Program-made: the position numbers and the translations under genes
Shown: positions 1,875 to 51,353 of the stretch, piece after piece
How positions within the stretch are numbered: position 1 is the first letter of the stretch
How the letters are laid out: each line of letters begins with the position of its first letter
From: Nitrospirales bacterium
GTDB taxonomy: Bacteria; Nitrospirota; Nitrospiria; Nitrospirales; UBA8639
Assembly: GCA_031315865.1 (NCBI GenBank)
Contig: JALDRJ010000002.1
Coordinates: forward strand, 1,462,001 to 1,526,000
Length of the DNA stretch: 64,000 nucleotides
Reading direction: 5' to 3'
The notes under the pieces: generated by a model
What the model saw: the letters and a program-made list of their open reading frames with translations, nothing else
What the model was told of the DNA's origin: nothing
Database searches by the model: none

Positions 1875-2753
1875 CTAATCTTTCCAGGCAAAGCCTGAAT
1901 TTACAGCAAGAGAAGAAGGAGTCTGCAGGCCGGTATAGCGCGTGTCGTTGATAATCCAGGTGGGGTAACTTTTGATTTTTTCGGCCGCGCAAGGCTTGGT
2001 GAGAGGACTTCCACGTCCACCGGAGCTGCACTCGACATACGGTAATCGTTTGGCCGAAGCTTGAAATATGGCCTTCTGCTCCTGACAGCGGGGGCACCAA
2101 TACGCGCCGTAGAATCTGGCGCCTGTCTTCGTTAAATGCGTGGCTAAGGCTTGGAGCTGAGGATCTTCAGGGCCGGCGGCGGCATCGAATGTCCCACTAT
2201 AGTGCAGATGGAGGATGCCAACGATGATTAACGCAATCACGCTGGCTTCTTTAACCGATGTCAGCCATCCAGCAGGGCGTTGGATAATCGCGAGAATAAC
2301 CATACTGGTGAGAATAAAAAAGGACGCCAGGCAATAGGGGCAGGTCGCTTCAATTTCGACGATGGACACGATCGTGAGATAGGCACTGATCGCGAAACCA
2401 CAGATGGCGACGAAGAGGAAGGGCTTTGAGATGCAGGGTCGGTGTCTACTGTTCCAGATCAAGTTCGCCATGATGATGTAGGTCAGTAATCCCCAAAAGG
2501 CCATCGGGACCATTAAAAAGGTCGACCAGCGGCTACTTTGGACGAGGTCGCAGGCAGAACCTTCTGAACAAAAGGCTGGATGGTCTTCAAACCAAGCCAC
2601 GTACGTGAGGTAACTCGTCAAAAGAATGCCGGCTACGGCGAGAATCAACAAAGCGAGGGTTAAGGGAGGGATCCCATGAGGCTCGTTCGAAGTGGACGTG
2701 CCGTGAACGTTTGAGGCGGGCTCTGATCTCTGTCGCTTGTGACGTTTCGACAT
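1875..2753 (-). CDS. VKOR-thioredoxin fusion (vitamin K epoxide reductase family)
   Basis: The 292-residue protein has a charged N-terminus, then four or five membrane helices of the VKOR fold. The loop cysteine pair is C62/C68 (CSEGSAC) and the active-site pair is CPYC (138-141). After the last helix comes a thioredoxin-like periplasmic domain with CPRC at 220-223 (FYGAYWCPRC). In bacteria such fusions replace DsbB and reoxidise disulfide-forming proteins using quinone. The fused domain is presumably the internal redox partner. Both cysteine pairs are intact, so activity is expected. It converges with the fetB-like gene, 36 bp apart. Confidence 0.92.
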   Translation of the reverse strand: MSKRHKRQRSEPASNVHGTSTSNEPHGIPPLTLALLILAVAGILLTSYLTYVAWFEDHPAFCSEGSACDLVQSSRWSTFLMVPMAFWGLLTYIIMANLIWNSRHRPCISKPFLFVAICGFAISAYLTIVSIVEIEATCPYCLASFFILTSMVILAIIQRPAGWLTSVKEASVIALIIVGILHLHYSGTFDAAAGPEDPQLQALATHLTKTGARFYGAYWCPRCQEQKAIFQASAKRLPYVECSSGGRGSPLTKPCAAEKIKSYPTWIINDTRYTGLQTPSSLAVNSGFAWKD

Positions 2754-2867
2754 GTAAATACCTGATTCTTTATAGCATGACTGGACTTGTAAAAACGAGC
2801 TATGTCAGGATCGTAGCACACCAGTCTAAAGACAGGATCATGAGTTTGAGAAATTACTGTAATAGTG

Positions 2868-2885
2868 CAACAAAAGATTTGACCC
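2868..2885 (+). repeat. Isolated copy of the 18-bp end of the ~370 bp repeat
   Basis: CAACAAAAGATTTGACCC is identical to the last 18 bp of both long direct repeats around vapBC (14359-14376 and 15652-15669). It ends one base before the start codon of the J-domain gene. It probably marks the end of a repeat family scattered in this genome. Confidence 0.6.
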
Positions 2886-2886
2886 T

Positions 2887-3798
2887 ATGATTGAAGGCCG
2901 GAGTTTTTATCAAATTCTCGGCGTGCCGGAAGATGCGCTCTTGAAGGAAATTCAACGAGCCTGGCGCACGTTCGTGAAAGAGAATCATGAGGACGTCGTT
3001 CAGCCTTGGGAGCGGCAGGCGGCCAAGGAGCGCATGATCCTGATTAACCAAGCTTATGAAGTGTTGAGCAATGAAGACAAGCGAGCGGTATACGACAATT
3101 CGCATATGCTGAACGGAGGGTCCAAGATTGAACTGGTTCGCATTCGTGTCAGGCAGGCCAAAGAGATTATCCAAAAAGACTGCGCTCTGATTACCTGGGA
3201 GGATATTAAACTCATTGAGTCGATCATCGATTATTTGGATCGCAAGACTCAGGAGTCCTGTTTCGGACGGATGATCGATATTGTGTGCAATCATCCAGGC
3301 ATGGCAAAGCATGCGGTCTCCCTGGCCTTTGACGAACAGATCCTAAACGTGAAGACGACGCTCTTTGATACCGTGCTCCAACGGGCTCCGGCTGCTATCA
3401 CCTTCGATAAAGTCTACTTGTATGGAGAAGAGATTATCGGGGTTGGCGGGAAAGAGGAAAAAGAGCGGAATTATAATCAACTGGCTCGTGTGCTTTGTCA
3501 CCGGTTAGATCTGGCCAAGTACTTCGTGTATCCGTCCTTTCAGGAGCAGGCCTCAGGTTGTGAAAGCAATCTCCTTCGGACCTTGCTGACCCTCTCTCCC
3601 GACGCTATCACCCAAGATGACTTTGACAACTTTGTGAAGGCCGTGTGCGAGATCCGGTGGCATATCCATCATCAATTACGAAGCTATAACGAACAAGCCA
3701 TAGTTTGGATTCTCAAGGCCAGGCCCGATCTCATTCGAAAGCCCCCAAAGAAAAAAGAAAAAATGGAACTGCCTTTCCCCCTTCGGTCGAAGCCCTGA
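2887..3798 (+). CDS. J-domain protein with degenerate HPD motif
   Basis: The 303-residue protein has an N-terminal J domain (about 5-72: FYQILGVPEDA … LINQAYEVLSNEDKRAVYDN), recognisable by helices II-IV. The loop that should carry HPD reads NHEDVV, so the proline is lost and the tripeptide is HED. HPD is required to stimulate DnaK ATPase, so this may not act as a normal Hsp40. The remaining ~230 residues, rich in Arg/Lys/Glu with possible helical repeats, match no family I recognise. There is no glycine-rich or zinc-finger DnaJ region. No clear ribosome binding site precedes the ATG, and the repeat word at 2868-2885 abuts it. Confidence 0.8.
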   Translation: MIEGRSFYQILGVPEDALLKEIQRAWRTFVKENHEDVVQPWERQAAKERMILINQAYEVLSNEDKRAVYDNSHMLNGGSKIELVRIRVRQAKEIIQKDCALITWEDIKLIESIIDYLDRKTQESCFGRMIDIVCNHPGMAKHAVSLAFDEQILNVKTTLFDTVLQRAPAAITFDKVYLYGEEIIGVGGKEEKERNYNQLARVLCHRLDLAKYFVYPSFQEQASGCESNLLRTLLTLSPDAITQDDFDNFVKAVCEIRWHIHHQLRSYNEQAIVWILKARPDLIRKPPKKKEKMELPFPLRSKP

Positions 3799-4077
3799 CT
3801 CAAGCTTTTGAGATGTCAGCACATTCATCATTCGTAAGCTGATTCACGCACTCTACAACTATTGTTACCTGATTGTTGAAACGCAAAAATGTCTCCAACA
3901 ACGCCGCGGCACGAGCGTATGCGAAGCCCGCGTTTTTTCAAGCATAAGGATGGTGGCGATCTACGGCGTTGCGTGAATGGGTTGTAATGATCTTTTGAGT
4001 CGCTGGAGGGTTTGCATCGTTAATGCGTCTTCACAGACAACCCGGGAGATTCATGGATTGGAACACCGAGATAATGT

Positions 4078-4989
4078 TCAAGAGGAGGAAGAGATTTGTT
4101 CGAAGTTGTCGGAGTGCATTAATTCAATGGAGCTAGGCATGGGCGTTGATCCCGAAAATCTCGGGGCATACGAAAACTGATTCAAAAATTTTTTAAGAAT
4201 TGCTTGCTCCAGTCTGGACGGGAATGGAGTTGGGCAGGGGATGCGCACTAATAAATGAATGTGTCCCGGCTCTGGCAATTGAATGGTCACTCGTGGTTCG
4301 ACGGACGGTGTGTCGAGCCAGGCTTTGCCTTCGAGCGCCTTCATTTTTTTCCTGGCCTCTTGAAGATAAGGTTGACATTCTTCCTGGGCGGCTTTAAGCA
4401 GCAGATGTTCTGCCAACCTCCAATCATCATCGGTGCTCAAGGGGACGGTTATCACATGCAGCCGATAGTCCTTGGAGTATGTCTCGTTGGTTAACGAATG
4501 GTTGAGGAGCTGATTGTTCGGGAGAACAATGGCACGACCTGTGTATTGATGGGAGGTTTGCCCGGGACCAATCTCAAGGAGCGTGGTCGTCAGGAAGTTG
4601 TGATCCACGACATTGCCCCGTATCCCATTGATTTCGATCCGGTCGCCGACAGAATATGCATTGGAGGCTGTTCGAAAGAACGAACCAATGAGGCAATTCA
4701 GCAGTTCTTTGGTGGCCAGTACGAAGGCGACGGCTATGGCGATCAACGACACCGCGAAGTTTTGCAGTTGAGGAGCCCAGATAATCGCCAGCCCGACGAT
4801 CGAAATCAGGATCAGTGTATTTCTGATCGTGACCGACCAGCGCCGTCGCATGTCCCCACTCAATCGAGATCGCTCGAGGACCGAATGATGAAGCCCGGCA
4901 CGCAAAATCAGTCCGATCAGGACCAAAATGCATGCAGTCAGCCCCAAACGAAATAAGGTTTCTATGGGAAATGGAAGGATTCCACTCAT
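4078..4989 (-). CDS. MscS-family mechanosensitive ion channel
   Basis: The 303-residue protein starts with two or three membrane helices (about 8-27 and 53-92). An MscS-type pore-lining helix and β-domain follow (AVAFVLATKELLNCLIGSFF, then YSVGDRIEINGIRGNVVDHNFLTTTLLEIG), then an α/β C-terminal part with IVLPNNQLL. This is the small MscS type that opens under membrane tension to release osmolytes. No extra sensor domain is visible. The 279 bp between this gene and the J-domain gene hold nothing I can name. Confidence 0.9.
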   Translation of the reverse strand: MSGILPFPIETLFRLGLTACILVLIGLILRAGLHHSVLERSRLSGDMRRRWSVTIRNTLILISIVGLAIIWAPQLQNFAVSLIAIAVAFVLATKELLNCLIGSFFRTASNAYSVGDRIEINGIRGNVVDHNFLTTTLLEIGPGQTSHQYTGRAIVLPNNQLLNHSLTNETYSKDYRLHVITVPLSTDDDWRLAEHLLLKAAQEECQPYLQEARKKMKALEGKAWLDTPSVEPRVTIQLPEPGHIHLLVRIPCPTPFPSRLEQAILKKFLNQFSYAPRFSGSTPMPSSIELMHSDNFEQISSSS

Positions 4990-39725: not shown

Positions 39726-42700
39726 TTACGTCTTTTCCTCAAGTAATCTGTCCATTGCTTGCTCTAGATTTAACTCTAATTCCGTCATTCTTTCTTGAAA
39801 GGCCATGGCTTCTTTTGATCTGCGGATTCTCCCAATTTTTTCAGCATCTTTGACCAAGGAACGCTCACCTATAGCTTGCCTCGTGCGTTCACGTGTTGCT
39901 CCCTTCAGAAAGTTTGAAAATAGTTGCTTGATACCGGTATGCACCATTTGTATTTCAGAAACAACTTGTGCCTGGGTCAGAATTTTTTCTCTCATGGAAA
40001 GACGCTGGCCAAGATTGAGCCCTGGAGGCATTGACTTCTTCTTGGTATAGAGTTGATCCAATCTTAACTGTTCCCTGACCAATGCTTGGGCGATGTTTCG
40101 CGAGTGAGACAGGTCAAGCCCGAGATTACGATGTAATGCCTTATTCAGCCCCTTCCTATGAGACAATTCTGAGAGATGGCCTTTTGTGCCTAATTGAAGT
40201 TTAGAGCTACTTTTCAAGTCAGCTGTTTGAAGTCCCGTTTCATCTATAAATATCGACAAGTTCTTTTGATTATCTCGAACAAAGGACAACATAGCTGTTT
40301 CCAAAGGTGATTCACGCTTTTGCTTTAAAACATCTTGCACCCTGCGAAAGTATTCTCGCTCTTCCTTTGACAACTCACGGCCCGTATTGAGCATTTGTCG
40401 TCGATGAACATTCTTGCTCTCTTCAATATGAACATCCTTTACTTTGTAGCTAGATGCTTTAAGGCGTTTTCCAGCTTCCAAACCCTTAAAAAGGCTAAAT
40501 AGGTTGCCTTCTTGACCAAACTGCTGACGGTTTCTGGCTTCCTCGGTCGCTAAAGACCTTGTGTAGTCTACAGCTTGGTCAAAATTTGTTCTGCTCGAGG
40601 TTCTTATATCTTTGCCATAATCAAGAGGCTGATCTGAGTGGGCAAGTCGTTTGGCCCTCGGTTTGTCGGCTTCGTTTTTGGTTCTTTCAATTTCTAGATC
40701 ATCATGACCACGACCGGATTCAGTTTTATGGACTGCTGTCGGGCGTTCTACACGAATAGTCATGTCATTGCGGTAATGGGTTTCCTGATAATCGCTCAAT
40801 TGTGAAATAGGATCCCTTGTCAACGCTTCAAGAACTTTCCTTGACAATCCATGCTCACTTTCATCCAGCCGTTTACCCATTCTATCTCTCTGGGCAAGCC
40901 CCTGAGCAGAATGTTCTTCTACATGTCCTATTTCTCCACGGCCAGGAACTGTCATGGCCTTTAACAGTCCATTAACCATGGGACCGAAGTTCTGATATTG
41001 CGGTCTTTGAATAGCTTCAATAATTTCTTTGAGCTTTTGTGCAAACTCAAAACGTAACAGCAACCCACTCTCAATTTGTTGTTCTCGCTGATACTGACGA
41101 CTCAAATTCGTTAAGTCTCGCTCCTTTTTTGCTAGGTCCTTTAGGTGTTGCTCAAGTCGCTGTTGCTCCTGTGTGAGGGTCATGTGTTCCGCGATCATTT
41201 CTTTATCACGACGCTTTGTTTTGATTTGTTCTTGTCTTAGTTCTGATAGCTGTTGGTTAAGCGTGTGTTTCTGCTGTTGGGCTTGCTCCTGTTGTTGGGT
41301 CAGAACCTTTTTTTTGTCTGTGCAATCACGGATATGGTTTTGGAGTTGTCCCTTTTCGTGAGTGAGGACTTTCTGACGCCGGTTCAAGACCTTGGTCTGC
41401 TGCCACAATCTCTGTTTTTTTTGGGTAAGCTCTTTTTGACGCTGGGCAGATGCTTTAATATGCTGCTGAACTTGCCGTTTTTTCTGGGCGAGCACTTTCT
41501 GTTGTTGGGTAAGTACTTTGACCTGTCGTTGGACTTGGCGATGTTGTTGTTGAATACCTTTTTGTTGACGAATTAGCCTGGCTTTGAGTTCTTGAACTCT
41601 ATTTTGTTCCTTGTTAAGCGATTGTCGCTGTTTAGCGATTGATTCATGTTTTTTCGTGGCTCGTTGCTGTTCTTGAAGTGACACCTCTGGGTCTCGCGCA
41701 AAGGCCTTGATTTGGTTCTGAGCGCGACGGTGCTCTCTGGTGAGAGTTTTTTGCTGTTTGGAGAGGACATTTAGTTGACGTTGGACTCGATTCACCTCGG
41801 CAGTGACAGCTCTATACCTTTGAGCAATAGCTTTAACCTCGCCTTGAACTTGTCGCCTTTTTTGTTTGAGGACATCTTGCTGTTGAGTGAGTGATTTAGT
41901 CTGCTGCTGAGCACGTTGTCGTTCTATAGAGACAGACTGTTGGCATTGAGTCAACGTGTTAGTCTTCTGCCCATTCTGATGCTGCTCCTGTGTCAAACCC
42001 TTCTCTTCTTGCGCAAAAGTCTTAGTCTGTTGCAGTGCCTGTTTCAGTGCTCGCGACAATTCTTTTAGCTGGGGTTTCAGTTCCTTAATAAGACGTTCTA
42101 CCTGGTGTCGTTTCTGAGTCAGGGTCTCTTGGCGTTTGGTTAATGTGTGCGTCTGTTTCTCCATCTGACGCCGTTCACGGGTTAACTTGTCTTTGCGCTT
42201 TGCAAGTGTCTGCAATTGCTGCTGAGAGCGACTCTGATCATGAATTAGTGATCGCTGTCGGGCAGCCAGAACTTGAGCCTGGTTTGACTTCTGCTGAAAT
42301 TCCTGGGCTATCTGGTCTCGATTTCTCCGTGGTGTTTTGGACTGCTCCAGACGCTCCCGCCCTCCCTGAGTAAGAATTTTCGTTTGTTGAGTGACTGACG
42401 ACGTTCGTATGTCCCTGTGCTTCTGACCTTGCGCACTAACCCGATCGTGTTCTGATTGAGCTTGTAGGTGCTCACGAGATCGAGAGTTGTGCTGATCGGG
42501 TTGCTGGTCCTGGGTAAAGACTGACTGCACTTGGTCTTCCGGTAAATTGGTTTGCCCTCTTCCTTGTGCAATTTCGTCTCGACGAGCGCCCTGTGGTGCT
42601 GGTGATTGCTCTAAAGTATTATGTTGTTCCCTGGCTATGCGCTCATCAAGGTCTATTTTGGCTGTGACGTGTTGCTCATGTACGAGGCGTAGATTTTGTA

Positions 42701-42875
42701 TATTATCAGCGACTCTGGATAATCGATCGAAAAGATTCTTTTCTGTCTGCTGGATATCCTGGTGTAGTTGGGCAATGATGTTGGGACGCTTTATATTCTG
42801 CTGCCCTGAATCAGGATTTTTCTGTCGTTCTTTGGCAAGTTCCTGGTGACTTGCTCTTAGTTTTCGGTCCAGCAT
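39726..42875 (-). CDS. 1049-residue Gln-rich coiled-coil protein made of 21-residue repeats
   Basis: Residues ~200-600 are a chain of 21-residue units (three heptads), for example VQRQVKVLTQQQKVLAQKKRQ followed directly by VQQHIKASAQRQKELTQKKQ, then LWQQTKVLNRRQKVLTHEKG. This predicts a long continuous rod. Flanking parts are polar. The C-terminal ~450 residues (LSRKVLEALTRDPISQLSDY … RRSKEAMAFQERM) are helical and unfamiliar. No enzymatic motif is seen. The gene lies between the zinc-ribbon pair and the VirD4-like ATPase. A scaffold or DNA-bridging role would fit, but this is a guess. Confidence 0.7.
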   Translation of the reverse strand: MLDRKLRASHQELAKERQKNPDSGQQNIKRPNIIAQLHQDIQQTEKNLFDRLSRVADNIQNLRLVHEQHVTAKIDLDERIAREQHNTLEQSPAPQGARRDEIAQGRGQTNLPEDQVQSVFTQDQQPDQHNSRSREHLQAQSEHDRVSAQGQKHRDIRTSSVTQQTKILTQGGRERLEQSKTPRRNRDQIAQEFQQKSNQAQVLAARQRSLIHDQSRSQQQLQTLAKRKDKLTRERRQMEKQTHTLTKRQETLTQKRHQVERLIKELKPQLKELSRALKQALQQTKTFAQEEKGLTQEQHQNGQKTNTLTQCQQSVSIERQRAQQQTKSLTQQQDVLKQKRRQVQGEVKAIAQRYRAVTAEVNRVQRQLNVLSKQQKTLTREHRRAQNQIKAFARDPEVSLQEQQRATKKHESIAKQRQSLNKEQNRVQELKARLIRQQKGIQQQHRQVQRQVKVLTQQQKVLAQKKRQVQQHIKASAQRQKELTQKKQRLWQQTKVLNRRQKVLTHEKGQLQNHIRDCTDKKKVLTQQQEQAQQQKHTLNQQLSELRQEQIKTKRRDKEMIAEHMTLTQEQQRLEQHLKDLAKKERDLTNLSRQYQREQQIESGLLLRFEFAQKLKEIIEAIQRPQYQNFGPMVNGLLKAMTVPGRGEIGHVEEHSAQGLAQRDRMGKRLDESEHGLSRKVLEALTRDPISQLSDYQETHYRNDMTIRVERPTAVHKTESGRGHDDLEIERTKNEADKPRAKRLAHSDQPLDYGKDIRTSSRTNFDQAVDYTRSLATEEARNRQQFGQEGNLFSLFKGLEAGKRLKASSYKVKDVHIEESKNVHRRQMLNTGRELSKEEREYFRRVQDVLKQKRESPLETAMLSFVRDNQKNLSIFIDETGLQTADLKSSSKLQLGTKGHLSELSHRKGLNKALHRNLGLDLSHSRNIAQALVREQLRLDQLYTKKKSMPPGLNLGQRLSMREKILTQAQVVSEIQMVHTGIKQLFSNFLKGATRERTRQAIGERSLVKDAEKIGRIRRSKEAMAFQERMTELELNLEQAMDRLLEEKT

Positions 42876-43515: not shown

Positions 43516-45183
43516 CTATGTTTCGGTACTGGATTTAACTCCTTTTCTTAATGACGTATTACGATTGAGGGCTAGATTGGGTCCCTTATAGTTTTTTCCC
43601 CTCACATGGACAAACCACGTTTGAGGTCTCTCAACAAGCGCACTGAGAGAACCGACTACGACCGCTTGACCTCGCGACAGCGTCTGCAGAACCACGCGGG
43701 TAGGGAGGTCTTTTTTATCTTTGATTTCACTTTTGACATTTTGGCTTACACCATCTTTCGAATATGTCGCGTCGAATGTTTTAAAAAGTATTTCACTTTC
43801 TCCTACCAATTTTGAGGCCAAGTCAGCAGTTTCAGGATCTCCGACTTGCATGAAGATTTTTGCAGCCATATTCGAGACAATTCCCTGCCACGCATCTTCG
43901 AGTCCAGAGTTTTTCAGCATATGGATACTCTGAGTTGCGACAAGGCCCATACAGCCAAATTGTCGCATTAGCGAAAAAAAATTACTATCTCCAATACTCT
44001 CCCCTTTCAATTCCGTAGCCACATCTGAATATTCATCTGCAAGAAACAGGAGAGGTCTTTCTTTGTTTTGAAGGTCCGATCTTTCAAAACGAGTGAGCAC
44101 GTGCTGCTGAAACATCACTTTAATTACGGTACAAAGAATTTTAGCAATTGCGAGATTCCGCTTCGATACACTAACGAGTACAAATTTACCATTTTCGATG
44201 ATTTCATCGTATAAACTCAGTTGCCTGCGAGAAGGAGGGATCTCGTCGGAAAATACATCGAATTTTCTGGATCTAAATAGTCCATAGCATTGATCCATAA
44301 ATGATTTGAGTATGGGTTTATCTTTTTCATTTTCTAAAAATCGATTGAGTGTACTATTACACAATCGAAATTGTTCCAATGCATCTTCATTAAAGGTACT
44401 GGAGAGGGATCTTGCCAAGTCCAATGCTAGCTGGAGGTTTTCTTCCTCTTTAGACTCATTACCAGGTGACGGCGAATAACCCAAGAAAAGGGATGCCAAA
44501 TTTTGTAAGGTTGGACGTGTTTTCAGTTCTTCTTGCAAAAGCTCTAGCAGCGAGAGACCTGCACCAAAGAGTTTCCCAAGTTCATTAAGCCAAAATGGTT
44601 CTCGAGACCCAATTCCGGCGCTCTTTGCTGCCATGGCTAATGCTTTTCCAAGAGCATCTGGATCTAGGAAGGAGTGGATGAGGTTACGTTTCTCTCCATG
44701 CTCCTTCATAAAAGACTCGTTGATGATAATTAGATCCTTTCGTCTCCCAACCTTAGAGAATTTATTAACGATATCTCCTACTAATGCGCTTTTGGGATCC
44801 AGGAGCAGACCTCCAAATTTCTTGGTCTTTGAAGATTGTTCAAATGCTAGAATTTGGTCGAGAAGATGCATCATTAAGAATGTTTTCCCACAGCCCGGGA
44901 CTCCAAATATGCCATAACTCTGGCAAAGTCCCTGATCCTTGATATAGATTTGACTAGGGGCTTCCCCTAAAGAGTATTGCATCTTTTCCTGATCTATCCC
45001 TGTACCGCTATAGTTTCGTGGTGCTCGAGCTTGGGCAGGATGAATTCTAGCTGGCGGCCGAGATCGAATAATGACTTTTGGTGGTTTGGTTTTTGAGGGG
45101 AGGGAGCGGATTAAGCATAATTCGCTACCCACTTGAATTCGACCTTTTACTTTAACTTTTCTACTCTTGAATTGAATCGACAT
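43516..45183 (-). CDS. VirD4/TraG/TraD-like coupling ATPase
   Basis: The 555-residue protein has the P-loop GVPGCGKT (94-101) in SYGIFGVPGCGKTFLMMHLL, LLLDPKSALVGD after it, Walker B LLFLADEYSDVA in the C-terminal half, and the TraG/TraD-type motif GLVATQSIHML. These are features of type IV coupling ATPases that pump DNA or bind relaxosomes. No N-terminal membrane helices are visible, unlike most VirD4 proteins; some mobilisable elements and HerA/FtsK-like defence ATPases share this. No relaxase or mating-pair genes are recognisable in the window. Confidence 0.8.
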   Translation of the reverse strand: MSIQFKSRKVKVKGRIQVGSELCLIRSLPSKTKPPKVIIRSRPPARIHPAQARAPRNYSGTGIDQEKMQYSLGEAPSQIYIKDQGLCQSYGIFGVPGCGKTFLMMHLLDQILAFEQSSKTKKFGGLLLDPKSALVGDIVNKFSKVGRRKDLIIINESFMKEHGEKRNLIHSFLDPDALGKALAMAAKSAGIGSREPFWLNELGKLFGAGLSLLELLQEELKTRPTLQNLASLFLGYSPSPGNESKEEENLQLALDLARSLSSTFNEDALEQFRLCNSTLNRFLENEKDKPILKSFMDQCYGLFRSRKFDVFSDEIPPSRRQLSLYDEIIENGKFVLVSVSKRNLAIAKILCTVIKVMFQQHVLTRFERSDLQNKERPLLFLADEYSDVATELKGESIGDSNFFSLMRQFGCMGLVATQSIHMLKNSGLEDAWQGIVSNMAAKIFMQVGDPETADLASKLVGESEILFKTFDATYSKDGVSQNVKSEIKDKKDLPTRVVLQTLSRGQAVVVGSLSALVERPQTWFVHVRGKNYKGPNLALNRNTSLRKGVKSSTET

Positions 45184-46478: not shown

Positions 46479-47783
46479 TTATCTTTTAATGATGGGATCA
46501 TGTTTACTATCCTTCTCTAAAACATGCACCCCAAGTAATCTTCTTGAGTTGACCGCATCATCTATCCGATCCCATTTTCTTTGGTTTTCTGAATAGAATT
46601 TCCAATAATCTAAAAGCAGTTCATCAATCTTTCTGTCTAGGTTCTGTAAACCGACTGGATCATTACAAAATGAATATTGGTTTCCCCATCCCTTCATGAC
46701 GTTATTTGCCACACTCAACGTTTCTATTAAGGTCAACTTCTTTTTTAGCAGATGCTTTGGTTGATCCATTGCTACCTTACTTTTGGTCAGAATTTCACTA
46801 ACACTATGTAATAGTCTTTCTTTCGATTTCGGGTTTGGTCTGATTTCACCTGGACGGATCTCACAACCCAAAAAATCAAATCCACTCTTGATGTATCCCT
46901 GCTCTGCTTTGTCCTTGTCTTTAAATGGATCATAAGCGCTTAAGCCAAATTCGGCTAGGATTCGTTTTCCACTTTCGAATGCGGCGACAACCTTTCTCTT
47001 ATTGGGTCCTAGGATAAGAAAATCGTCTATATATCTGAGACATATTACCCCACGATCATTTAATTTACTGTCAAATTCTTCTAATAAAATATTCCCCATT
47101 ATTGGTGAGAGACAGCATCCCTGAGCAACTCCTACTTCATAGATGGGGAAGGCATCAGCTTGTTTCCCCAATTCGTCAAGGTTCTCTAATTCGGTTTGAA
47201 CTGCTTCCTGTATTAAGTCGTTGAACTTCTGATCGGTTATAACACTCTTAATCTTCTCGAGAACTATGTTTTTGGGTACTTTGGTAAAAAACCCTTCAAT
47301 ATCAGAGCAAATAAAGTACTTTGCCCCATTTCTTATGGAGTTGTAAGCGGCTTTTACTGCTCCAGGAACTCCTAATCCTTTTCCCTTGATTCCTCCAAAA
47401 CTTGTAGGAATTTTATAATAGGGGTCTAATGCCTTTTCATCCTGTAGGACATTGAGAATAGCTCTCTGAACAATTCGGCTTTCAATCGTGGATATAACAA
47501 GAGGGCGGGGAGCTTTCCTCGGTCGTGGGATTGGGACACCGATTGATGGTGGAAAAGTAAATTTCTCTTGCCGAAGGAGGCGATTTATGCGGTTGAGATT
47601 GGTATCTGCCTTTTGTTGAAATAAATCAACTTCATCACGTGTTTGCTTACACTTCGAAGCACGACCGTTCTCATATACAGTAGTCCACGCACTTCTTAAA
47701 TTTTTCGGACCATGGACTTTTGCATATAGAGATTTGAGCTTAATTTTTTTGCCTTTGCTGAGCTCCCACTGGCAAACCTGAGC
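46479..47783 (-). CDS. Reverse transcriptase without standard start codon
   Basis: The frame is open for 434 residues, from just after a TGA at 47784-47786 to the stop at 46479, with no ATG or GTG in its first 200 codons; the first conventional start is TTG 47171, deep inside the catalytic domain. RT motifs are complete: RPLVISTIESRIVQRAILNV, ICSDIEGFFTKVP (motif 3), VAQGCCLSPIMGNILL (motif 4) and CLRYIDDFLIL (YIDD, motif 5), then a helical C-terminal part. It is not a retron RT by eye (no NAXXH/VTG seen) and has no maturase or endonuclease domain. Its 5' end abuts the duplicated cassette, so it is probably truncated there. Confidence 0.75.
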   Translation of the reverse strand, partial: AQVCQWELSKGKKIKLKSLYAKVHGPKNLRSAWTTVYENGRASKCKQTRDEVDLFQQKADTNLNRINRLLRQEKFTFPPSIGVPIPRPRKAPRPLVISTIESRIVQRAILNVLQDEKALDPYYKIPTSFGGIKGKGLGVPGAVKAAYNSIRNGAKYFICSDIEGFFTKVPKNIVLEKIKSVITDQKFNDLIQEAVQTELENLDELGKQADAFPIYEVGVAQGCCLSPIMGNILLEEFDSKLNDRGVICLRYIDDFLILGPNKRKVVAAFESGKRILAEFGLSAYDPFKDKDKAEQGYIKSGFDFLGCEIRPGEIRPNPKSKERLLHSVSEILTKSKVAMDQPKHLLKKKLTLIETLSVANNVMKGWGNQYSFCNDPVGLQNLDRKIDELLLDYWKFYSENQRKWDRIDDAVNSRRLLGVHVLEKDSKHDPIIKR

Positions 47784-47801
47784 TCAGCTGTCGCAAAGAT
47801 G

Positions 47802-48011
47802 TCAGACACCAGTGGGGGTTTCAGCATGTGGCGGTGTTGCCCCATGTGTACTCACCCAACCGCCCTCCACTCGTGGAGAGTCAGTGCATCCTCTACTTGC
47901 CGCGGCACCTGGAGACGGCCCGCTGAGAAGGGATGCCTGGGCTAAAGCAAGTAAAACAGAGAACACAAATGTGACGGATAGGAAGTGACCCAAGCTCGCA
48001 CGTTTTTGCAT
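47802..48011 (-). CDS. Small secreted protein, 3'-truncated copy
   Basis: The product starts with a signal peptide (MQKRASLGHFLSVTFVFSVL, then LALAQA). It continues through the 131-bp repeat (SLLSGPSPGAAASRGCTD … THGATPPHAETPT) and stops two codons after it. The proper C-terminal part is present in the other copy upstream. ATG 48011 lies 10 nt after the stop of that copy. Confidence 0.5.
   Translation of the reverse strand: MQKRASLGHFLSVTFVFSVLLALAQASLLSGPSPGAAASRGCTDSPRVEGGWVSTHGATPPHAETPTGV
47810..47940. repeat. 131-bp direct repeat, copy 1
   Basis: Identical to 48171-48301; the unit spacing is 361 bp. It forms the middle part of the small secreted-protein gene. Confidence 0.93.
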
Positions 48012-48021
48012 GTACGACCTG

Positions 48022-48301
48022 TCACTGGGTCTTCCTCCAGTTTACCTTTTTGGGGACCACTTTCAAGTCCGCCACAAGCCCTGCCTCTGCCTTCAAATAA
48101 ATGCTGTCTACCGTCCAGTGATATTTCAAAGCTCCGGTGATATTTAGCACAGCCTGGCAAAGGCTGCATTCAGTGGGGGTTTCAGCATGTGGCGGTGTTG
48201 CCCCATGTGTACTCACCCAACCGCCCTCCACTCGTGGAGAGTCAGTGCATCCTCTACTTGCCGCGGCACCTGGAGACGGCCCGCTGAGAAGGGATGCCTG
48301 G
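48022..48301 (-). pseudogene. Small secreted protein, 5'-truncated copy
   Basis: The frame enters with repeat copy 2 and continues with ECSLCQAVLNITGALKYHWT and VDSIYLKAEAGLVADLKVVP to the stop (RKTQ). The signal peptide is missing; the first ATG in frame is at 48231. Joining the signal peptide of the downstream copy, one repeat and this C-terminus gives one continuous 117-residue exported protein with a CxxC. No family is recognised. Confidence 0.5.
48171..48301. repeat. 131-bp direct repeat, copy 2
   Basis: Exact duplicate of 47810-47940 in the same orientation. Confidence 0.93.
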
Positions 48302-48452
48302 ACGCTATTATTTTTTAGATAACCATGTTCAGAAGATAATCAAGAGGCCAAGACTGATATTGACGTGAAAGATCAAATACTAAAAAACTTATAAGGGAAA
48401 ACTGCCAGGCTTGTGGACCAGAAAAGGGGGTGGAGCAGCTGATATGGAGCTA

Positions 48453-50666
48453 TCAGTTGGAGAGAGTAAACTGTTTTTTCTGATTCTCAAGAAAGAGATT
48501 TACTCTTTCTCGTGAGCTGTAATTAGGGTCTGTTATTAACTTATCACTTAGATCACTAAGAATTCCTTTCATTCTTCCTTTATCTTTTGCTTGATGTTCA
48601 TTAATAAAACTTCGAACTGAATTAATAACTTCATCAGGTAGGCTGTGAGAGATGTTAACTCCTAATAGGTTAGGGAAAATATTCTGGTAGACCTCTTTTA
48701 TGACCTCAGTATGAGGAGCCAATGAAATATAATTGTAGAGAAAATCTGGACGCATGTAACAGCTCACTGAATATTTGTTTGAAAAGACCTGACAAACAGT
48801 CCTATGTGTTACTTTGTCACTTGATAGCCACCAAGTTCGGTAGCCTGACCAATTTTGGTGGCTCATTTCCCTATTCTTTTCCCTGAGTGCAAAAATAGTC
48901 AAAATAAGTTTTGCATCGTTTGAAGCTCTATGTTTATCCCTTTTTTCTTGCTCGAGTGCCGTTGTTAACTGGGTTAGTTCAGTTTTGTCGATATTAATGC
49001 CAGTGCTTTCTAAAGGAACGAATTCCACACCGAAATTTTCCTGTAAACACAACAGCAAATCCCTGTTAAGGTTGGCTAGGGTTGGGTTACAGAATTTGTC
49101 TATAAAATCATTAAAGGTGGAAATATTATTTTTTAGTTTTGAATAAAAATACGCCCTGATCAAGATTTCCTTGATGTAAATAATGGTTATATCATCGTCA
49201 TATAATTCTTCACTGTCTTTGAATTCTTCTTCATAATTATTAATAATTTTCTTAATGTGAGCAGCAAGCTCATTTAGTATTGTTTCATTAATTCGAAGCT
49301 TTACCCCTGCGGCCTTAGCTCCACTGAGTAGGTTCCAATATCGTCTATTCTGTTCATCAAGACATATTTCAGATAAAGCGGGAATTAATATAGAAGTACA
49401 TACATACACATCTAGTTTTGATGCCATTTGTGTAAAAAAGAGTGAGACTTTTGGCTCACATTGGAGCAAAAATAGCAGCATGTAGGTATTTGCTAGGCAT
49501 TTAAGATATTCTTTTTGTTCGGTTGTCCCATGGTACACGAGATTGCGAATTGTCAGTAACAGAGCCTTTTTAACTGATTGCTTATTCTTCAAGATTACCC
49601 GACTTTCATCTACAACCTCTGAAATCGTTCCGTAAAGATCCTTTTCAAATGCCTCCTTGCTATGCCCAGTACTTACTAGGTCTGAAAATTCTAACCCTTG
49701 CCTATAAAATAATTTATTTAGAGTCTCATTGATCAGGGAAACTGCATCCTGGATTCTTACATCATCTGTCCTTAAATACTTCTTAAGCTCTGGGACAATG
49801 CTCTCACGAAAGGATTTATGAAGTGCCAAATCTCTAAGATTTTTATCAGTTAGTTCTTTGCGTGTTTCATAAGGGAGACAATATCCATTGTCTTTTGTGT
49901 GATACTTTATTTTTCTTTCCGGTTTGGAAGAAAGAATTTGCAGTCTATCATCTATTTGGGAAGTCAGAACTTTAGGTTGGAATTTTAAATATTTCCCAAT
50001 TTCCTTGATAATTTCCTCTCGATTTTTGAGGATGTTTTCGTCTGGATCAGTTCCCTCCAAAGCATAAAGTATCAAGGTGTCAGCCAGAACTTGGTCTAAA
50101 TTTAATGCATCCTTTCTCATATCCCATTGCTGCCTAAGAAAAACATAGAGGCGCGGATCAGAGACAAGATCACCTATTTCGAACCCTGCCCCAGGTTTTT
50201 GAAACTCATGCAAATAGTTGTTTTTAAAGACCTCATAAGCATTCACTGTTGCAGGTGAATTGTTGACATTAGCGCCAAACCATAAAAGGTCATAAACTTG
50301 CATTGGTTTCTTATGTTTATCCGCGAGTTCATCAATTAATTTATCTTTGTCTTTGATCTCTTGGTTTGTAACGTATGTGAAGCGATCAAATTTAATATTG
50401 TTGTCCTTTAACAGTTTTACGGACCCTGAGGCTTTTCCTTCCCCATCTTTCTCAATCGAGAACTGATATATTACCTTTTGATTCCCTTCTTGATTGAAAA
50501 CATGGTCAAGTCCATCTATGCCTTTGTCTCGTATCCCCCCAGCCGGAACAAAGGAATACCCCAATCTTCCTGAAAGAAAGTTCTTAGCAAAATCTTCAAA
50601 TACGAACCCATCGTCGATATGTCCTAGAGCACACATACAAGCTTTGGGATCTACACCGTTCATCAA
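48453..50666 (-). CDS. Large protein with restriction-endonuclease-like N-terminus
   Basis: The 737-residue protein begins with a region resembling a restriction-fold domain: FEDFAKNFLSGRLGYSFVPA (E24), GGIRDKGIDGLDHVF (D51), VIYQFSIEKD (QxS where E/QxK is usual). A long helical middle part follows. Near 600-660, a stretch with DAKLILTIFALREKN and GYRTWWLSSDKVTHR … YMRPDFLYNYISLAP is reminiscent of a PIN-like domain. Both assignments are by eye. It lies at the right border of the island, alone, and is AT-rich. A nuclease-based defence protein is the best guess. Confidence 0.6.
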   Translation of the reverse strand: MMNGVDPKACMCALGHIDDGFVFEDFAKNFLSGRLGYSFVPAGGIRDKGIDGLDHVFNQEGNQKVIYQFSIEKDGEGKASGSVKLLKDNNIKFDRFTYVTNQEIKDKDKLIDELADKHKKPMQVYDLLWFGANVNNSPATVNAYEVFKNNYLHEFQKPGAGFEIGDLVSDPRLYVFLRQQWDMRKDALNLDQVLADTLILYALEGTDPDENILKNREEIIKEIGKYLKFQPKVLTSQIDDRLQILSSKPERKIKYHTKDNGYCLPYETRKELTDKNLRDLALHKSFRESIVPELKKYLRTDDVRIQDAVSLINETLNKLFYRQGLEFSDLVSTGHSKEAFEKDLYGTISEVVDESRVILKNKQSVKKALLLTIRNLVYHGTTEQKEYLKCLANTYMLLFLLQCEPKVSLFFTQMASKLDVYVCTSILIPALSEICLDEQNRRYWNLLSGAKAAGVKLRINETILNELAAHIKKIINNYEEEFKDSEELYDDDITIIYIKEILIRAYFYSKLKNNISTFNDFIDKFCNPTLANLNRDLLLCLQENFGVEFVPLESTGINIDKTELTQLTTALEQEKRDKHRASNDAKLILTIFALREKNREMSHQNWSGYRTWWLSSDKVTHRTVCQVFSNKYSVSCYMRPDFLYNYISLAPHTEVIKEVYQNIFPNLLGVNISHSLPDEVINSVRSFINEHQAKDKGRMKGILSDLSDKLITDPNYSSRERVNLFLENQKKQFTLSN

Positions 50667-50973: not shown

Positions 50974-51049
50974 TGGTGGGTCGTACAGGGATCGAACCTG
51001 TGGCCCGCTGATTAAGAGTCAGCTGCTCTACCAGCTGAGCTAACGACCC
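50974..51049 (-). tRNA. tRNA-Lys (anticodon CTT)
   Basis: 76 nt including encoded CCA. The cloverleaf is complete: acceptor GGGTCGT with ACGACCC, D arm GCTCAGCTGGTAGAGC, anticodon stem CTGA with loop CTCTTAA, T arm CAGGTTCGATCCCTG. The 3' part (50974-51019) recurs at 18913-18958, so this is the tRNA used by the island; the 5' half is unique here. Confidence 0.97.
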
Positions 51050-51057
51050 ACCTAGAG

Positions 51058-51172
51058 GTTATTGAAAAAGATCACCAGCGGCGTTCTCGTTGCTTGTGCT
51101 TCTCGACGTACAACCCGTACGCCTCGAAGCTCTCGCTGCCTGCGGCCTTGCTGGATGAGCTTTTTGAATAAC
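51058..51172. repeat. 115-bp imperfect palindrome between the two tRNAs
   Basis: GTTATTGAAAAAG (51058-51070) mirrors CTTTTTGAATAAC (51160-51172) with one mismatch. The centre CGTACAACCCGTACG is an exact hairpin and the arms GCTTCTCG / CCTCGAAGC also pair. It looks like a non-coding stem-loop repeat, possibly of a genome-wide family. Confidence 0.7.
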
Positions 51173-51277
51173 CCCCGATTAAAAGAACTGAAGATACTTA
51201 ATCAGCTTCGTTCTCGTTGCTCATATGTGAAGTTCGTGAAAACTCTTTCTGTGAGTCAAACGATGTTTCAGAATAGA

Positions 51278-51353
51278 TGGCGCGCCTGGCAGGATTTGAA
51301 CCTGCGGCACCTGGCTCCGGAGGCCAGTGCTCTATCCACTGAGCTACAGGCGC
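51278..51353 (-). tRNA. tRNA-Arg (anticodon CCG)
   Basis: 76 nt including CCA. Acceptor GCGCCTG pairs with CAGGCGC, D arm GCTCAGTGGATAGAGC, anticodon loop CTCCGGA, T arm GCAGGTTCAAATCCTGC. Intact. Confidence 0.97.

Follow-up and report, generated by a model that had tools for sequence, protein, structure and literature searches.

We analysed a stretch of 64,000 nucleotides (nt) from a Nitrospirales bacterium (GTDB lineage Bacteria; Nitrospirota; Nitrospiria; Nitrospirales; UBA8639), positions 1,462,001 to 1,526,000 of the forward strand of contig JALDRJ010000002.1 in the NCBI GenBank assembly GCA_031315865.1. This whole stretch is called the window, and positions are counted from its first base. 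Its minus strand carries the gene of a group II intron-like 4 (G2L4) reverse transcriptase (RT), which is preceded by a leader with two copies of a 131-bp repeat, R. The copies (47810-47940 and 48171-48301) are 100% identical, lie 361 bp apart from start to start and enclose a segment named U; a genome search found the whole leader at one place in the 3.78-Mb genome. The features of the element, in the direction of the minus strand, are as follows.

48316..48343, minus strand: candidate promoter P1, TTGATT-16-TATCTA, adjoining the 5' end of R1 (by eye)
48171..48301, minus strand: R1, the first 131-bp copy, directly downstream of the candidate promoter (repeat comparison)
48022..48231, minus strand: R1-U5' open frame, given 69 codons in the list of open reading frames (ORFs), with its start within R1
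48022-48170, minus strand: U part of the R1-U5' frame, ...HWTVDSIYLKAEAG...KKV, the proposed C-terminal half of an assembled gene
47941..48170, minus strand: U, the 230-bp segment between R1 and R2
48039..48066, minus strand: candidate promoter P2 inside U, TTGAAA-16-TAAACT (promoter scan and scripted scoring)
48034-48038, minus strand: GGAGG, Shine-Dalgarno sequence of the short leader ORF
47942..48025, minus strand: short leader ORF, GTG at 48025, 27 amino acids (aa), MTGRTCKNVRAW..., with a CKNVP-like motif that recurs in relatives
47802..48011, minus strand: small ORF MQKRA..., 69 aa, which enters R2 from U and whose stop codon ends 8 nt beyond R2; the proposed N-terminal half
47810..47940, minus strand: R2, the second 131-bp copy (repeat comparison)
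47757..47788, minus strand: RT-proximal hairpin, a 9-bp perfect stem GCTGAGCTC/GAGCTCAGC with a 14-nt loop (0 of 300 shuffles as good)
47752..47756, minus strand: AAAGG, Shine-Dalgarno-like, 7 nt 5' of the ATT (read from the sequence)
46479..47744, minus strand: G2L4 RT, full length, 421 codons and a stop, YIDD active site, ATT start at 47744-47742

The minus-strand frame at 46479-47783 is open for 434 codons and holds an intact RT domain (RVT_1, E = 3.8e-21) with an intact YIDD core; ORF translation and domain match thus agree with what an earlier, sequence-only reading of this DNA had stated. That reading had also noticed the lack of an ATG or GTG ahead of the catalytic core, and inspection of both translation and DNA found neither codon 5' of RT motif 4, the start listed by the ORF finder being a TTG within the core (47171). 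A stop at 47784-47786 bounds the frame on its 5' side, so an earlier start in the same frame is impossible. In an alignment of the window RT with 10 relatives, the conserved region begins at SLYAKV, which follows an ATG by 2-4 codons in eight of the relatives (exceptions, L004 and L035), and the window's ATT at 47744-47742 aligns with the position of this ATG. The N-terminus of the solved G2L4 RT, 9d5x, coincides as well (MSRLYKDI, compared with IKLKSLYAKV in the window). The alignment with the relatives and 9d5x indicates that the window RT is complete, with no N-terminal residues missing, and by it a truncated RT or pseudogene was ruled out.

The sequence-only reading had offered three explanations for the missing start: removal by the duplication, a rare start such as ATT, or translation coupled to upstream sequence. 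The rare start is the best supported, for ATT, judged by eye, appears to be the best near-cognate codon in the right position, stands 7 nt behind AAAGG and would yield the full-length enzyme. Coupling is possible, a hairpin and short upstream ORFs lying just before the start. Removal by the duplication finds no support, because the N-terminus is complete and the duplication is a layout common to 15 of the 17 testable loci described below. Likewise, the 5' end of the RT had been thought to meet a duplicated 361-bp cassette; a repeat does lie nearby, but it is 131 bp long, 361 bp being the start-to-start spacing, and the RT frame starts 26 bp past the nearer copy without entering it. A one-base sequencing error may account for the absent ATG; the relative L004 is also without ATG at this position.

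A profile built from 11 family members and searched against PDB sequences matched 9d5x with 432 bits and 9d4s with 429 bits (E about 1e-128), two entries titled 'Group II intron-like 4 reverse transcriptase'; the next PDB match was a group II RT at 137 bits. The window RT is 34% identical to 9d5x across 417 columns. YIDD is present in the window and in nine of the 10 aligned relatives (YVDD in L099), and the available part of a 2014 survey gives YIDD, replacing YADD, as a unique mark of G2L4 (PMC4244168). The placement among RT classes that had been missing is thereby supplied, and it rests on profile scores against PDB sequences, not on a tree: the window RT belongs to the known G2L4 family. 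Near-equal scores were obtained with PADLOC and NCBIfam models (UG17/DRT10, the best PADLOC model, 148.9 bits; general RT model, 148.6; group_II_RT_mat, 147.8 with a cut-off of 300), and membership in UG17/DRT10, taken from the best PADLOC model, was dropped once the PDB profile search gave G2L4 with 432 bits. As far as the available parts of the literature go, G2L4 RT is known for break repair via microhomology end joining; the P. aeruginosa enzyme acts in double-strand break repair and favours strand annealing and snap-back synthesis (PMC12337344), and repair activity is also reported in PMC13015716. The locus of the crystallised G2L4 RT was not found in one search, of viral contigs only.

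The family set comprised 21 loci with an RT profile score >310 bits (the window, L002, L004, L005, L033, L034, L035, L098-L101, L119-L124 and L126-L129), repeat fetches of the same place having been merged. Four of them were untestable for the leader, namely L120, L123 and L129, with <160 bases upstream, and L004, with N runs inside both copies. On the reverse strand of L004 these runs measure 316 and 310 N and the sequences flanking them repeat each other; they are probably gaps at the repeat. The set includes near-duplicates in three viral contigs (L120, L121 and L123), whose RTs are 95-97% identical and whose overlapping leader is identical at 151/152 and 82/82 positions. The layout R-U-R-RT was found in 15 of the 17 testable loci, with R of 59-136 nt, 0-4 mismatches between the copies, a spacing of 321-382 nt and a gap of 39-79 nt between the end of R2 and the RT. 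R measures 112-136 nt in 13 of these 15, 78 in L005, where it is cut by the contig end, and 59 in L098. The two remaining loci, L002 (RT at 763) and L126 (R at 1310-1442), have a single R directly before the RT, without U; they may have arisen by deletion, represent another state of the element or reflect an assembly collapse. Coverage of the L002 contig is 1.94x, so its single R in particular may be an assembly collapse. A chance duplication was ruled out by the layout common to relatives.

The layout was present in none of 27 other RT loci (L006-L032), four of which had <1000 bases upstream. Upstream of the RT in L031 are several repeats of ~35 nt at ~70-nt spacing, which are CRISPR-like. 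Sixteen viral RT loci with lower scores (L103-L118) were also compared; in eight of them (L105, L108, L112-L115, L117 and L118) repeats of 31-42 nt lie near the RT, spaced 624-792 nt apart, and the five inspected read as ordinary diversity-generating retroelements (DGRs). The family itself is rare: it was found in 2/235 genomes of the window's order, in 2/369 and 4/398 of two other genome sets, and in 5/240 and 5/240 of two further sets with four matches common to both. Its sources include a gammaproteobacterial metagenome-assembled genome (L002) and P. aeruginosa (L033). The 15-base motif TGCAAAAACGTGCSA occurs in 57 stretches of viral contigs, one of which (L095, on the same contig as L034) matches the RT profile.

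R differs between most loci yet is near-identical within each locus. For example, R of L121 and R of L124 agree at 116/133 sites in either copy (17 differ), and the copies are identical within each of the two loci. Copies left by one old duplication would not be expected to remain identical within so many diverged loci. The leader is also more alike than the RT gene, over aligned positions, in all six locus pairs compared. The clearest pair is L033/L034, with agreement at 969/1236 positions in the RT, 132/132 in R and 234/242 in U; the figures for L121/L124 are 807/1227, 116/133 and 184/222, and those for the most distant pair, the window and L098, are 657/1251, 35/59 with many gaps, and 128/217.

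Analyses of pairing indicate that R folds as an RNA, with sequence changes that preserve pairing, in one clade, for which we use the working label 'alpha' (not a taxonomic name) and which is represented by six R sequences (L100, L101, L121, L122, L124 and L126). Among the 38 pairs of the alpha fold, 12 are changed on both sides, compared with 3.7 (standard deviation 1.7) in shuffles and 0 of 500 as high, and 89.9% of cells pair, compared with 28-46% for slid structures; as these six sequences also served to derive the fold, the comparison with slid versions is tilted in its favour, and kinship alone can exceed such shuffles. A covariance model of alpha R matches the six training loci, L120 and L123, and the strong matches to the last two are not independent support, because these loci are near-duplicates of L121. 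The folding energy of R is below the shuffle mean in 15/15 loci (z from -0.5 to -4.3, median -1.8). A fold of three R sequences of the window's clade has 26 pairs, five double changes and a covariation term of the wrong sign, from too few sequences to weigh. A Rfam search of the leader gave one sub-threshold match only, on the opposite strand and outside R-U-R.

Between R2 and the RT, a stem of 5-9 bp can be drawn before the RT start in 17/17 loci examined for it, ending 6-32 nt before the RT. It clearly beats shuffles in five of the 17 (the window, 0/300; L004, 1/300; L034, 4/300; L002, 7/300; L033, 10/300) and is not clearly above them in most others. The stem sequence varies by locus with the pairing kept (GCTGAGCTC/GAGCTCAGC, GCTGAGCCG/CGGCTCAGC and GTTGGGGCT/AGCCCCGAC). 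When R2 and the RT start were folded together for six loci, next to no covariation was seen.

Candidate promoters stand before R1 (P1) and within U (P2). In nine of 14 loci with upstream sequence, the best-scoring P1 candidate has its end ≤25 nt 5' of R1 or 1 nt within it, the hexamers being mostly weak; for the window, scripted scoring preferred TTCTGA-16-AATAAT, ending 5 nt before R1, over the P1 chosen by eye, and a general promoter scan lists neither. In 11 of 15 loci and, by eye, in L004 too, hexamers resembling those of P2 (TTGACA-like, 15-16 nt, TAnnnT) are found 85-102 nt 5' of R2; in the window one such match, taken alone, is not above chance (two found compared with 3.5 expected from shuffles).

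If the leader is read as U-R-U, the order that a circular or tandem copy would have, a frame that enters R from the end of U and passes right through it is open in 15/15 loci. This frame, U3'-R-U5', stays open 131-235 nt into the next U, and in L101 and L124 it is still open where the piece read ends. In the window, the assembled frame would run from MQKRASLGHFLSVTFVFSVLLALAQAS... via R to ...HWTVDSIYLKAEAG...KKVNWRKTQ, giving 116 residues from the ATG at 48011. In the genome, its halves are separated and in reversed order; the first stops at 47802, just past R2, and the second has no start in U. The first half continues into the RT frame in L121 and overlaps the RT start in L100. For the window's MQKRA ORF, structure prediction gave one N-terminal helix at residues 7-30, with a mean pLDDT (predicted local distance difference test score) of 67. 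The MQKRA frame starts with ATG in seven loci (the window, L005, L033, L034, L098, L099 and L128), and in most loci a Shine-Dalgarno sequence leads into a short frame in which a CKNVP- or KNRL-like motif occurs. We can only guess at a -1 frameshift joining the leader ORF to the R frame at C/G-AAA-AAC, a non-canonical site with only five A.

Coding was assessed as protein similarity against column shuffles in four sets: four alpha loci, five alpha loci, the trio of the window, L098 and L033, and the pair L033/L034. The similarity of R plus U5' exceeded the shuffles in the first three (p = 0.0025, 0/400 and 0/300, respectively), and that of R alone in the two alpha sets (p = 0.005 and 0/400). 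Substitutions in R of the four alpha loci fall on codon positions 1/2/3 as 22/18/38, and those in U5' as 18/22/23. The log10 P values of frame openness sum to -13.8, which is overstated as related loci were treated as independent. The coding support is moderate and strongest in R of one clade, the evidence being mixed.

On these grounds we tentatively read the locus, with a confidence that falls somewhat short of probable, as a G2L4 element that carries the RNA template of its RT ahead of the RT gene and assembles a small gene by copying it. Transcription from P1 would start near R1 and yield an RNA of the form R1-U-R2-hairpin-RT. Group II intron RTs bind the DIVa hairpin, which we take the RT-proximal hairpin to resemble, and the G2L4 RT would bind this hairpin just 5' of its own start codon. 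It would then copy R2, U and R1 up to the 5' end of the RNA, whereupon the cDNA (complementary DNA) end complementary to R1 would re-anneal to R2, a strand transfer as at retroviral terminal repeats. An RNA starting near R1, with R2 before the RT, is what such a transfer needs, and the transfer would suit the strand-annealing activity reported for G2L4 RT. Repeated cycles would produce tandem (R-U)n DNA, in which the promoter of U would stand before the frame U3'-R-U5', encoding a small protein with a signal peptide or membrane helix. The assembled product would probably act in phage defence or stress. What the sequences show directly is the identity of the RT, the R-U-R arrangement, the closeness of the copies and the RNA fold of R in one clade; template use and all that follows from it is inferred. 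One locus, L098, fits the proposed transfer in two respects: the run of 59 bases identical between its copies makes up the 5' part of R, which the transfer requires to match, and the 13 nt lost from R2 belong to a stretch that would be left uncopied once the jump had taken place. A broader version, in which G2L4 RTs at large are gene-assembly engines and not primarily stand-alone repair enzymes, the copying of R-U-R building, from a permuted genomic template, a small membrane-protein gene that exists intact only as cDNA, is possible and a step less likely.

A number of observations weigh against gene assembly. The proposal was drawn from sequence alone, and the role of G2L4 RT in the available parts of the published accounts is break repair. 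The copies of R are not intact throughout, R2 of L098 being without 13 nt after the 59 identical bases, and the alpha-R covariance model found no R in the window's clade. The openness of the frame is unremarkable in each locus (P of 0.01-0.38 for the 3' extension); a second sense frame also spans R in 5/15 loci, and the longest antisense frame exceeds the chosen one in three (L098, L121 and L128). The close pair L033/L034 gave no coding signal for R plus U5' (p = 0.57), and R alone reached p = 0.06 in the trio and 0.72 in that pair; U5' alone gave p = 0.15 (four alpha loci), 0.045 (five alpha loci), 0.037 (trio) and 0.45 (L033/L034). In the trio, another frame, though with stops, is about as similar (1.10 compared with 1.12). 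The unit length is a multiple of 3 in only 2/15 loci. The start of the MQKRA frame is not uniform, being TTG in L127, CTG in L004 and an ATG followed by an immediate stop in L119, and alpha loci such as L121 and L124 have no evident start; the better-spaced Shine-Dalgarno sequence leads a different short frame, one frame off the R frame. P2 is off its usual place in L099, L127, L128 and in L005, where R is cut. In the window, the -10 of P2 abuts GGAGG, so the two are unable to serve one transcript.

Alternatively, the leader may be a structured, repeated regulatory 5' region that controls translation of the RT, its repeats being kept alike via recombination and the RT acting in break repair. 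We consider this unlikely, while recognising that the structured R, the leader ORF with its Shine-Dalgarno sequence and the hairpin adjoining the RT start, clear in 5/17 loci, are all as a regulatory leader would have them, and that the repair activity of G2L4 RT is in print, in the parts of PMC12337344 and PMC13015716 available. Such regulation leaves unexplained why a near-identical second R stands right after P1 in 15 loci, and it offers no reason for the leader being more alike between loci than the RT gene.

More doubtful is that R serves, as in DRT9/DRT10, as a noncoding template RNA, present here in two copies and yielding short repeated DNA with no assembled protein. R is of a fitting size (112-136 nt in 13/15 loci) and folded with pair-keeping changes; the DRT10 noncoding RNA, according to the available part of its description, has 137 nt and lies upstream of a SLATT gene (PMC12632851), and UG17 is the best PADLOC model at 148.9 bits. 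The RT profile, however, is that of G2L4 at 432 bits, no SLATT match was obtained for the two large neighbours scanned, and the two copies and the open frame are left unexplained.

We give a slightly smaller chance again to a switch at the DNA level, by which U is excised when one R copy recombines with the other, perhaps as a circle carrying the assembled gene, leaving P1-R directly in front of the RT. Long direct repeats recombine readily, and L002 and L126, where a lone R precedes the RT and U is absent, could be products of such an event; a resolvase-like gene follows the RT in L033 (annotated) and L034 (from an ORF), and L122 has an integrase-like ORF. On the other hand, the single R of L002 may be the assembly collapse to which its 1.94x coverage points, and a switch leaves the RT no role in the leader. 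That the RT is a decayed gene whose start was lost via a chance tandem duplication, as the lack of ATG or GTG before the core might suggest, is highly improbable with a full-length N-terminus, intact motifs and the same leader in 15/17 testable loci.

The surroundings of the family fit a defence or mobile setting without proving one. Neighbours of L034 match ShosA (E = 2e-86) and, more weakly, ShosT (1e-8), L002 has an OLD/GajA/AriA-like ATPase as neighbour, and close to L098 is a protein with weak similarity to a restriction enzyme (3e-6). No PADLOC family was matched by the TIR-domain protein beside L033. From readings of the ORFs, the L124 element (2403-4292), with its R-U-R leader, lies among phage head and portal genes, and L122 lies near an integrase and a large terminase. 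In the window, all on the minus strand, a 737-aa protein is encoded upstream of the RT element (48453-50666); it matched no Pfam, NCBIfam or PADLOC family at threshold, and its N-terminus, by eye, presumably resembles restriction-endonuclease-like proteins. A TraD/VirD4-like coupling ATPase is encoded at 43516-45183 (TrwB_AAD_bind, E = 3.9e-12; PADLOC mad8, E = 8.6e-14), and the RT element may therefore sit in a mobile or defence island. Genes for tRNA-Lys and tRNA-Arg are close to the element (50974-51353); tRNA genes are a usual site for integrated islands. A glutamine-rich ORF of 1049 aa at 39726-42875 is probably coiled-coil, judged by eye.

Compared with known systems, the RT is the G2L4 enzyme over its full length, in YIDD and at the N-terminus. 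No mention of an R-U-R leader or template was found in the parts of the G2L4 literature covered, which do not include the founding Cell 2022 account, where upstream sequence may be described. With group II introns the element has RT ancestry in common; unlike them, it has no Rfam intron RNA in the window at gathering scores, and group_II_RT_mat scores 147.8 bits against a cut-off of 300. An RT with a repeat pair nearby is also seen in DGRs, which have template and variable repeats with adenine-directed changes, whereas the copies in the window are identical. A DGR was ruled out by the single place of the leader in the genome and by the contrast with the DGR-like loci, with their 31-42-nt repeats 624-792 nt apart. 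DRT10/UG17 and DRT9 likewise carry, ahead of the RT, a folded RNA of some 130 nt (PMC12632851, as far as available), and DRT10/UG17 differs in that the RNA is present twice here and the RT is not UG17, 148.9 bits being much the same as the 148.6 of the general RT model. For a SLATT partner, the two large window neighbours were the only proteins scanned, with no match.

The closest parallel in logic is DRT2, for which the available part of PMC12039810 describes a gene existing only in concatemeric cDNA. As in DRT2, an RT here lies beside an RNA whose tandem copying would join a permuted frame and put a promoter before it. In contrast to DRT2, the RT is of a different family (NCBIfam Drt2, 30.9 bits against a cut-off of 390), the repeats are long and near-identical instead of short ACA motifs, the unit has 321-382 nt instead of about 120 nt, and the candidate promoter is whole inside U. 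Nor is the frame endless: it ends inside U in most loci, L101 and L124 running to the end of the U-R-U read, and a stop-free concatemer frame with a unit divisible by 3 is not the pattern here (2/15 units). G2L4 RT has crystal structures and a repair mechanism, and no RNA template was found described in the available parts of the literature covered; a leader that is present in 15/17 testable loci and more alike than the RT gene is a concrete template candidate for the field. If the cDNA is made, the annealing activity of the enzyme would gain a simple purpose, the assembly of a gene by reverse transcription would have a second example, outside the RT family of DRT2, and strand transfer of the retroviral type at terminal repeats would be at work in a bacterial system. 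The RT family is known and the logic of gene assembly is known from DRT2, and it is their combination and the joining device that appear to be new.

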